Shown: positions 3,605-39,273 of the stretch, one piece after another
Numbering within the stretch: the stretch's first letter is position 1
How the letters are laid out: the number at the start of each line of letters is the position of its first letter
Virus record (IMG/VR): IMGVR_UViG_3300031521_000122
Span: 1-44,735 of that record
Source of the DNA: a virus
Reading direction: 5' to 3' (one strand)
Length of the DNA stretch: 44,735 nucleotides
Notes under the pieces: model-generated
The model's input: only the letters and a program-made list of their open reading frames with translations
Database searches by the model: none
Told to the model about the DNA's origin: nothing
Made by a program: the position numbers and the translations under genes

Positions 3605-4513
3605 ATGACGAACCCGAAACCGAAAACGACTGCCGATGATGGCCCCGATGATGAAACTGGCGAGGGCGAGCCGGACGGCGATGAAAACCCCTCGTCCGAG
3701 TTCGAGTCTGGCGTCGGTAACGCTGCCCATGGGTTTCTGAAGGCCCTCGAGGGCCTCGACAAAGAAGGTGGCCCCGATACCGACCAGGAAGTCCAGAAGG
3801 CGTTCACTGCATTCTTGGACGACGTTCTGGAATTCGGGCATGAGTCCATCGAAAAGGCCCTGGTGATCGGTGTCACCCTGGGTTCAGAACACGCCGCTGA
3901 CGGCGATATCAACAAAGGAGCGGGCGTGATGACAGAAGACGTGAAGAAAAGTTTGGATGCGCTGACCGGCGTCATCAAGTCGCTGTTGCCCCAGGCGCAG
4001 TCGGCACATTTCAGCTCCCTTGCCAGTGAGGCTGATAAGCTGGCCTTCGTCAGCAAGTCGTTTGCCGAGCGCGAAGCACTTGTGACCGAGATCTCCAAGG
4101 CTGGTCTGCCGGAAAGCGTGCTGAAACAGCTTACCGAAGCGGAAGACTTGAAGAAACGCTTCGACGCCATGGAGCAGACTGCCCTGGCCGAAACCTTCGC
4201 CAAACGCGCCGCGCCTCTGGGCGTCGATGGTGCCCTGCTGCTGGACATTCACAAGGCGAACCCCGAACTGGTCGCTCGCGTGGAAACGGTTCTGAAAGCC
4301 AAGGCCGAACAAATCCGCAAGGGTGGCCTGTTCTCTGAGATCGGTTCGTCCCAGAGCGACCCGAACGGAACCGATGCCGAGTCGGTTCTCAAGGCCAAGG
4401 CGGCGGAAATCATCGCCAAGAACCCGATGATCTCTTACGCCAAAGCCTACGGCATGGCCCTGGATCAGAACCCCAACCTGTACGCGGAAACCCGCGTTAC
4501 CAAACGCCTGTAA
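3605..4513 (+). CDS. capsid scaffolding protein (probable)
   Basis: A 302-residue acidic, helical protein directly upstream of the decoration and capsid genes, the usual scaffold position. The N-terminus is Asp/Glu/Pro-rich (DDGPDDETGEGEPDGDEN). The rest is predicted helix with charged repeats and ends in a basic ETRVTKRL tail, as scaffolds often do to bind coat. ATG 3605 is preferred over GTG 3578 because AGGAGG (3587-3592) and CAGG (3601-3604) lie just before it. A second in-frame start at 3929 has its own good ribosome site, so a shorter 194-residue scaffold may also be made. Identity rests on position and composition. Confidence 0.55.
   Translation: MTNPKPKTTADDGPDDETGEGEPDGDENPSSEFESGVGNAAHGFLKALEGLDKEGGPDTDQEVQKAFTAFLDDVLEFGHESIEKALVIGVTLGSEHAADGDINKGAGVMTEDVKKSLDALTGVIKSLLPQAQSAHFSSLASEADKLAFVSKSFAEREALVTEISKAGLPESVLKQLTEAEDLKKRFDAMEQTALAETFAKRAAPLGVDGALLLDIHKANPELVARVETVLKAKAEQIRKGGLFSEIGSSQSDPNGTDAESVLKAKAAEIIAKNPMISYAKAYGMALDQNPNLYAETRVTKRL
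3914..3931 (+). promoter_or_regulatory. internal ribosome binding site and in-frame start in the scaffold gene
   Basis: AAAGGAG at 3914-3920 precedes GTG 3926 and ATG 3929, both in the frame of the scaffold gene; the spacing to ATG is 8 bases. Initiation here would give a 194-residue C-terminal product, as lambda makes Nu3 from inside gene C. Confidence 0.4.
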
Positions 4514-22487: not shown

Positions 22488-23921
22488 ATGGAATACATAC
22501 ACAAGTGCAAACCGTTTCTTCATCAGGATGTCGCATTCAAGCGATTTGAGTACGCCCCGTTCTTTGCTATCTTTGCCGACATGGGCACCGGCAAGACAAA
22601 GATGGTTATTGACCAGGCGGGCGTTCGCTACCTACGCGGTGAGATAGACACGCTTCTGGTCATTTCCCTCAATCTGGTTGGTTCGCAGAACTGGATTAGC
22701 GAACTAGAAGCCCACATGTCCCCTGGTATCACCTACAAAGCCGCTTACTATATGAGCGGCCCGCGCGTTGCACATAAGGAGCGTGTGGCTGCCGTCTGCA
22801 ATGCAACGGGTGTCTTTCGTATCATGGTAGTACACGTTGATGCGTTATCCCATGAAAGCGGTATCAGCTTCTGCGAAGACTTTATTGCAAAGCACAAAGC
22901 AATGGTCATTGTGGACGAAAGCCAGACCATCAAAAATCCCACGTCGCGTAGAACGAAGCACGTAACTTCGCTTGGTAAGGAAAAGGCTGTCGTCGCGAAA
23001 GCCATTACTACCGGGACGCCGCTGGACAAGGGGTGGGAAGACCTTTATGCACAGTTCAGGTTCCTAAACCCGGCTATCATCGGGTGCCGGACATTCGCAG
23101 CATTCCGCGCACTGTACTGCCAGATGGGCGGATTTGAGGGCCGTCAAATCGTCGGGCATATCAACCTCCCAGAACTCAAAGCCAAACTTGAACCGCACAC
23201 GTTCAGCGTGCGGTCAGAGGATTGCCAAGACTTGCCTGAACAGATGTTCATGGAACGTAAGATTGAGCTTACGCCTGAACAGAAGAAGCTATATGACGCG
23301 TTGCGCAACGAGTTCTTCGCTGAACTGGATAGCGGTGAAATCCTCGAAGCAGATATCGCCATGACGCGCTTGACACGCCTTCGGCAAGTAACATCAGGCT
23401 TTCTTCCGAATGACGACGGTACATTTCAGCATATCCCAAGCAACCGACCGCAGGAAGTGCTGGACATTCTGGAAGAAGCGGGGGGCAAGAAGGTTATCAT
23501 CTGGTGCCTCTATAAGGAGTCGCTTCGTATTCTGCATGAAACTTTCCGCAAGGCAGGTATCGGTGTGGCGCACTTCCACGGCCTCGTCGCCCCAGAAAAG
23601 CGCGCAACGGAACTTGCACGTTTCAAAGAACACGCTGATTGCCAGGGGCTACTGTCGTCAACCGCCGTTGGCGGCGCGTGTATTACCGTGAACGAGGCCA
23701 AAGTCCAAATATTTTATGAGAATGGGTTCTCCTATCTTCAGCGGGCGCAGGCACTGAAACGTAATCATCGCCATGGGCAGACGGAACGCGTGGCCTATTA
23801 CGACATCATCGCAAAGGGGACGATGGACACAAAAGTCATCAATATGCTGAAAAAGAAAGAGTCCGTTGCGATTGATGTGCGAAGTGTTGGTGCGTTACGC
23901 GGTCTACTTGAAACGATTTAA
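22488..23921 (+). CDS. SNF2-family superfamily 2 DNA helicase/translocase
   Basis: A 477-residue ATPase with both RecA-like lobes. Walker A is DMGTGKT (residues 31-37), motif II is DESQTIKN (143-150), motif III is ITTGTPLDKGWEDLYAQFRFL, and the second lobe contains KVIIWCLYKESLRIL and a motif VI region QRAQALKRNHRHGQ. TGTP.....EDL and QA..R.HR.GQ are SNF2-type features. It is a minimal core without extra domains, of the kind carried by many phages near replication genes. Its exact job (fork remodelling, recombination or clearing of DNA-bound protein) cannot be read. Confidence 0.8.
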   Translation: MEYIHKCKPFLHQDVAFKRFEYAPFFAIFADMGTGKTKMVIDQAGVRYLRGEIDTLLVISLNLVGSQNWISELEAHMSPGITYKAAYYMSGPRVAHKERVAAVCNATGVFRIMVVHVDALSHESGISFCEDFIAKHKAMVIVDESQTIKNPTSRRTKHVTSLGKEKAVVAKAITTGTPLDKGWEDLYAQFRFLNPAIIGCRTFAAFRALYCQMGGFEGRQIVGHINLPELKAKLEPHTFSVRSEDCQDLPEQMFMERKIELTPEQKKLYDALRNEFFAELDSGEILEADIAMTRLTRLRQVTSGFLPNDDGTFQHIPSNRPQEVLDILEEAGGKKVIIWCLYKESLRILHETFRKAGIGVAHFHGLVAPEKRATELARFKEHADCQGLLSSTAVGGACITVNEAKVQIFYENGFSYLQRAQALKRNHRHGQTERVAYYDIIAKGTMDTKVINMLKKKESVAIDVRSVGALRGLLETI

Positions 23922-23941: not shown

Positions 23942-23978
23942 GTAACGGCGGCTATCCCCATAGCCGCCGTTACTGTTT
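23942..23978 (+). terminator. terminator of the SNF2 helicase gene
   Basis: A perfect 13-bp stem (GTAACGGCGGCTA at 23942-23954 with TAGCCGCCGTTAC at 23961-23973), a 6-base loop and TGTTT after it. It separates the helicase from the large RNA candidate downstream. Confidence 0.75.
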
Positions 23979-24785
23979 CCGGTGCCACGGGCCTGGAAAA
24001 GTGGGTAAACGGCGGCACCGGTGGGGCGGGTATCGGGTATCCGCTACAGGTACGGGGTAAGGTCTAAAAAGGTGTTGCCAGATACCCACCATTTCGGCAT
24101 ATTGGTGTTCTGCATAGTTAGCAACCTCGACCAAGTAGCAGCCTTACGGCGAACGAACGGTGAAATGAAAACTACCCCAGCGGATCGGTTGCTTGGACGG
24201 TCTGGGCCTAGTCGGAAAGCGTCATAGAGGCAACGTCAGCCAGAGTCCAGCAGGCGTGACGGGCGGAGAGAGTGCCGCAACAGTGCGTCTTCTGCAATCG
24301 GTTGGCTCGCTTAGCTTAAGCGGTGAACCGTAGGAAATTAAGTTCTATCTGCCTACCATTCGGGGAACCGAATGTAGATGGTTCGCAGAACGTAGGCTTT
24401 ATGCGAGACTGAAACCCACACCAGAACGTGCAAGACGCCAAGCAAGCAGCGGGGAAGCGTGACAGCCGGAGAGACGGCGACAGTTTTTGAGAGATTCGCG
24501 ATGGTGGAAACCTAATAAGTCCACCGGGTCTGTAACACCGTGATGGTAGACTTGCCACGGTTAGCGAAGACAGGTTGGGGCCTTAGCTCAGTAGGAAGAG
24601 CGTGTGCTTTGCAAGTACGAGGTCGTCAGTTCGATCCTGACAGGCTCCACCAAGAAGGCGATGGTGCAGTTTGCCTCTGATGCATGGCGGGATTAGCGGT
24701 TAGACCCGTGTTCCCTTACCTGTACATGTAAAACGACCTAGCCTTTGAGTGCGGGATACGAACCGCCGGAACAAGTCGTACTGAG
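23979..24785 (+). ncRNA. large structured non-coding RNA candidate with an embedded tRNA (GOLLD/ROOL-like setting)
   Basis: About 800 bases bounded by two terminators, with no plausible gene on either strand but dense local complementarity. Helices I can pair: 23979-23986/24014-24021; 24028-24034 or 24035-24041 with 24081-24087; 24121-24126/24187-24192; 24195-24205/24240-24248; 24299-24303/24326-24330 with inner 24309-24313/24317-24321; CATTCGG-GGAA-CCGAATG (24357-24374, a GNRA tetraloop) inside 24351-24356/24392-24397; a crossing pair 24342-24346/24387-24391 (pseudoknot); 24465-24468/24475-24478; 24503-24508/24520-24525; 24537-24542/24556-24561. Finally 24526-24536 pairs with 24699-24707, closing a junction that holds the tRNA as one arm. 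Size, phage location and tRNA link resemble the GOLLD and ROOL RNA classes; membership is unproven. Confidence 0.55.
24577..24652 (+). tRNA. tRNA-Ala (anticodon UGC)
   Basis: A 76-base cloverleaf. The acceptor stem GGGGCCT/AGGCTCC has one G-U pair, the D stem is GCTC/GAGC, and the anticodon loop TTTGCAA has anticodon TGC. The T arm GTCAG-TTCGATC-CTGAC is canonical, and the 3' ACCA is encoded. No intron. It lies inside the large RNA region and its pairing partners outside the cloverleaf suggest it is processed out of that transcript. Confidence 0.93.
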
Positions 24786-24818
24786 AATGCCAATCAGCCC
24801 CCCGCTGGTTGGCATTTT
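24786..24818 (+). terminator. terminator of the large RNA/tRNA unit
   Basis: A 13-bp stem with one G-U pair (AATGCCAATCAGC at 24786-24798 with GCTGGTTGGCATT at 24804-24816), loop CCCCC, then TTCC. It closes the tRNA transcript and supports a dedicated RNA unit between 23979 and here. Confidence 0.75.
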
Positions 24819-25090
24819 CCGCTCCTACAGGCAGCCTTTAGGCCGCTAAGCCCATTTAAGGGCACAAACCCCCACCTAATGCGGAAAACCCGCAGAAAAC
24901 CGCCATAGCTATAGGGCTTTACCTAATGCGCGCGGATTTGCTGAAATTTTTTTCAGGATTTCTTGGCCCTCGGCCTAAAGTGCTAAAAACCCATTGAAAT
25001 CGTTGGATAAAATCGCACTACCCCCGCCCTAATGGGCACCTAAAATTAAAGGGGCACCACTATAGCCGGGCGCGTGGGTCCGCTGGCAGC
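24819..25090 (+). other. gene-free region with CCTAAWR repeats and small hairpins, possible origin or control region
   Basis: No convincing gene on either strand. The 7-base word CCTAATG/CCTAAAR occurs five times (24875, 24922, 24974, 25028, 25039). Short inverted repeats are GCCT-TT-AGGC, GCCCATTTAAGGGC, CTGAAA-TTTT-TTTCAG (24941-24956) and GCCC-TAAT-GGGC. The T-rich 24941-24965 block is easily melted. The region separates the tRNA unit from the replication operon, so iteron-like origin or regulator binding are both possible. Confidence 0.35.
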
Positions 25091-38520: not shown

Positions 38521-39273
38521 ATGACCAAGACCCATGTTGCGCCCAAAACGGGCGATACCGCTGCTATGCAAGCCTTTCTGGCAAGCGGGGGCGAAATTAC
38601 CAAGGTGCCGCCGTTGAAGACCGGCCTGCCCAAGGAAAAAAGCCCAACTGTTATCGCGCAAGAAGCCGTTGCGGAAGAACGCAAGATGGCAAAATCGGTA
38701 GCACGGCAGGCGAAGATTGCCGTGGCTACCGATCCCGACAAAGTGGCAAAAGCTGAACAACGTGCCACGGAAAAGGCTGCCAAGGCGGCACAACGGGAGG
38801 CTGACAAAGCCGCTGCGCAATTGGCAAAGGACAAGGCTACTGCCGAAGCCCTTGCCCTTGCCAGCGAAAAAGCTACCGAGCGCGCCAATGCCGAAGCCGA
38901 AATTGCCGAAGCTGTGGCGATTGCGACCGCTGTTACCGCCACTGCGCAGGCGGAGTTTGATAAAATACAGGCGGAGGAAAACGCAAAGCTGGCGGCATTG
39001 CGCGAAAAGTACAAGAATATTATTCCCCCCGCGCATGCCAGCACGGCAAAGCCACGTAGCGCGCGCCACGGCGAAGGCTTTGACCGCTATGGTATCGCCC
39101 TTGGCACGAAAAACGCCCAAGCCGTGGTGATGCTGGAACGCGGCGCTTGCATGGCGGAAATTTCCGCAGCCTTGGGCGTTACTTTTTACAACCTGATTTC
39201 CAGCCTGCGCGCGACCGGCCACAAAATCCGCAAGGATGGCAAGGTTATCTACCTGACCCATATGGATGATTGA
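38521..39273 (+). CDS. Ala/Lys/Glu-rich coiled-coil protein with C-terminal HTH-like domain (copy B)
   Basis: A 250-residue paralogue of the protein at 30267. It has a long Ala/Lys/Glu coiled coil (residues 40-150), then AEFDKIQAEENAKLAALREK, then a C-terminal domain (FDRYGIALGTKNAQAVVML, GACMAEISAALGVTFYNLIS, KDGKVIYLTHMDD) aligning along its length with copy A, including the final LTH-DD. It lacks copy A's N-terminal globular part. Likely a DNA-binding protein, possibly nucleoid-like or a regulator. GAAGGA is 10 bases before ATG 38521. Confidence 0.6.
   Translation: MTKTHVAPKTGDTAAMQAFLASGGEITKVPPLKTGLPKEKSPTVIAQEAVAEERKMAKSVARQAKIAVATDPDKVAKAEQRATEKAAKAAQREADKAAAQLAKDKATAEALALASEKATERANAEAEIAEAVAIATAVTATAQAEFDKIQAEENAKLAALREKYKNIIPPAHASTAKPRSARHGEGFDRYGIALGTKNAQAVVMLERGACMAEISAALGVTFYNLISSLRATGHKIRKDGKVIYLTHMDD

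Follow-up and report, generated by a model that had tools for sequence, protein, structure and literature searches.

What occupies the gene-free stretch between the helicase gene and the next ORF of this phage, and which of its parts are conserved? The 44,735-base virus record analysed here (the window, that is, the whole stretch of DNA at its full length) encodes the tail, capsid and replication functions of a tailed phage. Its proteins are only 33–55% identical to those of the nearest named relatives, for example to the capsid of Roseobacter phage RDJL Phi 1 and the polymerase of phage DSL-LC04. After the end of an SF2 helicase gene at 23921, no plausible ORF begins before 25143; in this gap lies the stretch 23979–24785, which a preliminary description had read as a large structured phage RNA with a tRNA-Ala inside one of its junctions, being either a divergent GOLLD or ROOL RNA or a new class.

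Inspection of ORFs and sequence bore out that these approximately 800 bases are without genes and lie between two strong hairpins. ORFs of 64–80 aa within 23979–24785 gave no PHROG match below E = 0.09, and it is solely from missing ORF matches that the stretch is judged noncoding. The upstream hairpin is probably the terminator of the helicase operon and the downstream one, formed by AATGCCAAtCAGC/GCTGgTTGGCATT, the probable terminator of a noncoding transcript (Table 1). A good sigma-70 promoter was not found inside 23979–24785. Just 3' of the downstream terminator, some 160 bases contain three copies of CCTAATG (window 24850–25040), a possible binding-site repeat. Elsewhere in the window, the protein encoded at 38521–39273 matches, over a short span, the RNA-polymerase-binding domain of SutA (E 2e-6, just under the curated score), and is a candidate host-polymerase binder.

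The tRNA-Ala proved sound, ARAGORN and Rfam agreeing on it: the cloverleaf and anticodon are accompanied by an encoded CCA and by a G3:U70 pair, both read from the sequence. The helices previously proposed around it fared differently. The GNRA hairpin at 24357–24374 is exactly as claimed and exceeds chance, a 7-bp GNRA hairpin being present in 14 of 300 shuffles, and the helix 24526–24536/24699–24707, said to enclose the tRNA, pairs as written. The crossing helices 24342–24346/24387–24391 and 24351–24356/24392–24397 do exist as pairs, but such an arrangement is not above chance, since it was found in 278 of 300 shuffles (8 observed versus a mean of 5.1, under a loose criterion). The folding energy of 23979–24822 is only 1 SD under that of shuffles (z = −0.99). 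Mostly, the helices on which the preliminary description relied differ from the conserved parts; the structure for which conservation could be demonstrated in the stretch consists only of the tRNA and of two pseudoknot-plus-hairpin modules, the latter missed in that description.

Each module is an RNA of approximately 50 nt, composed of an H-type pseudoknot, a GAC and then a hairpin with a GARAGA-type loop (GAGAGA-type in the window), in which the P1 hairpin loop AACxyz pairs with z'y'x'GU immediately 5' of GAC. When both strands of the window were scanned with the R1 model, whose training set contained neither window copy, the top two matches (24433–24481 and 24231–24281) both fell in the stretch, on the + strand. 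All three elements (P2 partner, GAC and GARAGA-loop hairpin) are present in both copies, which score 36.1 and 13.7 bits, the former score being partly circular because the search pattern was derived from the module 2 site.

Table 1. Coordinates (window numbering) of the features of the gene-free stretch and its flanking hairpins.
Feature	Position	Strand	Basis or remark
Palindromic hairpin, 14 bp, then TGTTT	23942..23982 (hairpin 23942-23973)	+	Sequence; palindromic hairpin also in cmscan output
Module 1	24229..24276	+	Second-best R1 match across the 44.7 kb (13.7 bits, E 0.039)
Module 1 P1, GGC/GCC	24229-24231/24239-24241	+	
Module 1 P2 pseudoknot, ACGTC/GGCGT	24233-24237/24253-24257	+	
Module 1 GAC	24258-24260	+	
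Module 1 P3 hairpin, loop GAGAGAG	24262-24265/24273-24276	+	
Hairpin, 7 bp, with GGAA (GNRA) loop, CATTCGG-GGAA-CCGAATG	24357..24374	+	Sequence; shuffle test
Module 2	24429..24478	+	Best R1 match across the window (36.1 bits, E 9.5e-8)
Module 2 P1, TGC/GCA, weak	24429-24431/24442-24444	+	
Module 2 P2, ACGC/GCGT	24435-24438/24457-24460	+	
Module 2 GAC	24461-24463	+	
Module 2 P3 hairpin, GCCG/CGGC, loop GAGAGA	24465-24468/24475-24478	+	
tRNA-Ala, anticodon UGC	24577..24652	+	ARAGORN; Rfam tRNA 61.9 bits
Strong hairpin, then TTTT	24786..24822 (hairpin 24786-24818)	+	Sequence; 16-bp stem in fold

The lead to the module was Acinetobacter phage DMU1 (locus L010), where a tRNA-Arg lies in a gap of about 490 bases directly after a homologous helicase; DMU1 has GTGACAGC-CGGA-AGACGGC in common with window 24459–24478 (by eye), and its tRNA-Arg begins 8 nt after the module. 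By means of a gapped pattern with 19 fixed bases, the core of module 2 was found in at least 120 viral contigs of IMG/VR, where a handful was expected by estimate. The 22-mer of module 1, CGTGACGGGCGGAGAGAGTGCC, has an exact match in 20 other viral contigs, and the P2 partner is present in 17 of the 21 rows with this word, the window included. Since the contexts of the core matches are diverse, the module does not belong to one phage lineage. It is carried by Acinetobacter phage DMU1, Pseudomonas phage Itty13, Stenotrophomonas phage phiSHP3 and Morganella phage IME1369_02, isolates in public records that make work possible without the metagenomic phage. An exact 25-mer of module 2 with its flank had no match, and searches through the helicase, a Pam3-gp34-like protein, the DNA polymerase and the capsid did not retrieve any full-length homologue with the RNA, thus leaving about 700 of the 800 nt without comparative support. 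One match of the homologue search (G017) was set aside, as it sits in coding-looking sequence, and in Manatee Spring phage ct3Et533 the gap after the helicase has neither a tRNA nor similar sequence.

Pairing was evaluated against shuffled controls, which, rather than the curated alignment, are the proper controls for covariation. Among the matches listed, the three bases z'y'x' just 5' of GTGAC pair with xyz of the upstream AACxyz (P2) in 68 of 111 cases, against 29.5 in shuffles and a maximum of 40 in 200 shuffles. The bases flanking AACxyz on both sides (P1) pair with each other in 74 of 86 of the matches listed (47 shuffled, maximum 58), and a P1 of at least 4 bp occurs in 45 of them versus 22, both counts being above all 300 controls. 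The P3 stems compensate (CTCT/AGAG, AATC/GATT, CCTT/GAGG, CCCC/GGGG) while the GARAGA-type loop is kept. The covariation proposed earlier as a check was thus found, P1, P2 and the hairpin stem of the module all exceeding the shuffled controls. In the curated alignment both sides had changed in 6 of 9 pairs, a biased count because the insides of loops had been cut back and pairing itself had guided the choice of the 5' strand. Similar tandem hairpins also occur upstream of the module (15 versus 0.8 in shuffles and 1 in distant sequence).

Short words recur upstream of the modules as well. Within 300 nt, GAGTAGG has 18 copies in many phages, mostly near −52, and GCGAAAGC is found 13 times versus 0.8 expected, the sites of the two words lying at about −52 and at −100 to −180; this suggests a conserved core longer than the module. 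At the 3' ends of L128 and of L010 (DMU1), GAGCGyGGGCGTGAAAAACTG is common to both and both finish in CGCTCTTTTT; some of these RNAs may therefore have another conserved domain at the 3' end.

The module has one locus per genome: R1 matched 35 of 37 records, nearly all of them at a single place or in one tandem cluster, with 1–4 copies close together on the same strand. No R1 match below E 0.1 was present in 783 kb of unrelated phage contigs. The bacterial and archaeal genomes of GTDB (257 billion bases) gave 34 places, mostly in alphaproteobacteria, so the module is rare there, the two counts being not strictly comparable because the GTDB pattern was two bases longer than the viral one.

A tRNA starts within 150 nt downstream at 7 of 113 loci, against 0.35 expected, at a distance of 6–13 nt in six of these, and none of the 113 loci has an opposite-strand tRNA within that distance. 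The tRNA T-loop word AGGTTCGA is enriched upstream of modules too (7 versus 0.16). In the window the tRNA-Ala begins 99 nt after module 2, thus its geometry differs from that of the other phage loci. Excision of the tRNA from a larger RNA, as previously suggested, is plausible because tRNAs recur 6–13 nt 3' of the module in other phages. In Pseudomonas phage Itty13, a large gene-poor stretch (L139:2600–3860) has two modules (2677 and 2969). Downstream of them is a sequence resembling a tRNA, which ARAGORN does not call and whose anticodon region has extra bases, and there is a further T-arm-like sequence near 3610. Atypical tRNA-like sequences, with normal acceptor and T arms and unusual or long anticodon regions, also lie near modules at L106:200–320, L036, L051 and L336.

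A different reading of this neighbourhood, possible if somewhat unlikely, is that the module works in cis as a leader element preceding genes or tRNAs, for instance an RNA-only processive antiterminator like HK022 put, by which polymerase would pass terminators. Indeed, the downstream gene is on the strand of the module in 83 cases and on the opposite one in 19 (crude, mechanical gene models), and the module frequently lies 17–60 nt 5' of a start codon, just ahead of the ribosome-binding site, in many phages, or 6–13 nt ahead of a tRNA. Tandem copies, the strong terminators on both sides of the window copy and a conservation across hosts that suggests universal machinery are in accordance with such a role. 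It is harder to reconcile with one locus per genome in unrelated gene contexts, with its placement in Vibrio phage 1.123.O, between two converging genes and with a terminator, and with the weak enrichment of downstream terminators (7 in 0–200 nt versus about 2 per bin elsewhere). No enrichment of the Rho-protective boxA was observed upstream of modules. The leader position holds at many module loci, not at all of them, and R1 had no significant match in the searched part of HK022 (20000–40751; best 10.5 bits, E about 1).

The same tandem pseudoknots, immediately 5' of tRNAs and ribosome-binding sites, might act as roadblocks, the module being a stability or processing element that shields the 5' end of the downstream tRNA or mRNA from nucleases. 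A hammerhead-like match upstream of the module in DMU1 (22.5 bits, below the gathering score) could yield a 5'-OH end. We consider this distinctly unlikely, one locus per genome being odd for a general stabiliser.

Frame 0 of the module is open at loci rich in GC and for the most part alphaproteobacterial, and reads as the conserved peptide VTAGETA or VTGGESA; over about 280 nt, 34 of 158 loci keep frame 0 open and 6 keep frame 2 open. At L147, a single 1,451-codon frame runs from a full ParB/MT-A70 methyltransferase through the module into a helicase-methyltransferase (L147:2423–6775); at L340, L331, L343 and L170 the module is at the edge of methyltransferase/helicase-type proteins. At these five loci and at L163, the module was seen to sit in frame, with GcrA, helicase or methyltransferase domains of the phage on either side. 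An in-frame module could be the tolerated read-through of an insert or could have a translational function. The former would make of it a mobile or selfish RNA-encoding insert tolerated between or inside genes, like the Rickettsia palindromic elements, and translated in frame in some phages; we regard this as very unlikely, given that a one-base bulge or nearby stops break the frame in many phages and that one locus per genome is unlike a spreading repeat. Since bulge bases and stops destroy the frame so often, the RNA structure is the constant feature. Speculative, and rather unlikely as a whole, is a broader reading in which this is an undescribed, very widespread phage RNA family with modules acting on universal host machinery; some phages would have a tRNA-linked noncoding RNA, and those of alphaproteobacteria an in-frame RNA device set between genes, joining or separating what they encode as translation proceeds.

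There is direct support for the module and its covarying pairs, for its recurrence across phages, for its restriction to one locus and for nearby tRNAs on the same strand; the earlier view of a structured phage RNA locus sharing one gene-free unit with a tRNA is also supported. Our preferred reading, at a probability of roughly 0.55, takes the stretch as a gene for a noncoding phage RNA that stops at the terminator at 24786–24822, with the two modules and the tRNA-Ala predicted to lie in one transcript. Units at DMU1 and L128, with promoter-like and terminator-like ends read by eye, and in Vibrio phage 1.123.O are suggested to be free-standing noncoding units. Against a free-standing RNA, the module elsewhere is often just before a start codon or within an open frame between genes. 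The near-chance folding energy, the lack of a good sigma-70 promoter, the 700 nt that found no comparative support and the 99-nt spacing of the tRNA from module 2 also weigh against the preferred reading. Weighing the free-standing-looking units against these leader-like positions, we favour the tRNA-linked noncoding RNA, with the leader element as its main rival. The stretch would be transcribed as a single precursor; a cut by host RNase P at the 5' end of the tRNA would free both the tRNA and a 3'-trimmed noncoding RNA, of which the modules would be the conserved docking part. As the module hardly varies between phages whose hosts differ widely, its docking partner would probably be host machinery common to many bacteria, such as RNA polymerase, the ribosome or a ribonuclease.

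To our knowledge, few large structured RNAs are known in tailed phages, and GOLLD and ROOL are without known function. Hallmarks of GOLLD are a conserved 3' domain and assembly into a 14-mer cage. Like the present locus, GOLLD (RF02032) is a large phage RNA near or around tRNAs, which its linkers sometimes contain, and ROOL is a phage RNA often near tRNA islands (PMC12286853). The present stretch shares their setting, a phage-borne, single-locus unit of about 800 nt with a tRNA in it, noncoding by the lack of ORF matches. However, the Rfam comparison that had been proposed turned out negative for both: with lax filters and a cutoff of E<=10, cmscan found no family in the region except tRNA, the other five lines being weak microRNA, snoRNA and SgrS matches far under curated scores, a direct GOLLD search of the whole record found nothing, and Rfam scans of relatives (13 at gathering score) gave neither GOLLD nor ROOL. 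Moreover, the conserved unit here is a repeated pseudoknot module of about 50 nt. Of the two identities put forward at the outset, a divergent GOLLD or ROOL is thus unsupported by covariance models and extremely improbable, whereas a new class is supported by recurrence with compensatory changes. C4 antisense RNA, considered as the identity of the core motif, had no Rfam match either.

Among smaller phage RNAs, the HK022 put antiterminator is a leader of about 70 nt with two structured elements (PMC9378689), which are two stem-loops, with no such pseudoknot or GAGAGA core reported. The theta (HDV-like) ribozymes are likewise small structured RNAs adjoining phage tRNAs (PMC10879173); the module differs in lying 5' of the tRNA and in having no Rfam HDV-like match. 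Neither hammerhead, HDV-like, twister, pistol nor hatchet ribozymes had an Rfam match in the window, and the relatives gave only the sub-threshold one of DMU1 (L010:9833–9880). This HH9 match has its core and stems complete by eye and lies just after a promoter-like box, TGATATAAT, upstream of the module and the tRNA-Arg.

Rickettsia palindromic elements are structured RNA-coding inserts readable in frame between protein domains; the module differs by its single locus per phage, its pseudoknot and its tRNA neighbourhood. A search for the core sequence in open-access literature text found nothing, subscription journals being outside its coverage. Judged against Rfam and this literature, the module family is new and widespread, associated with tRNAs like GOLLD and ROOL and, by model search, unrelated to them, and such a compact module, present once per genome, clustered with tRNAs and recurring in well over a hundred phage sequences from varied hosts, provides a testable handle on what tRNA-linked phage RNAs do.
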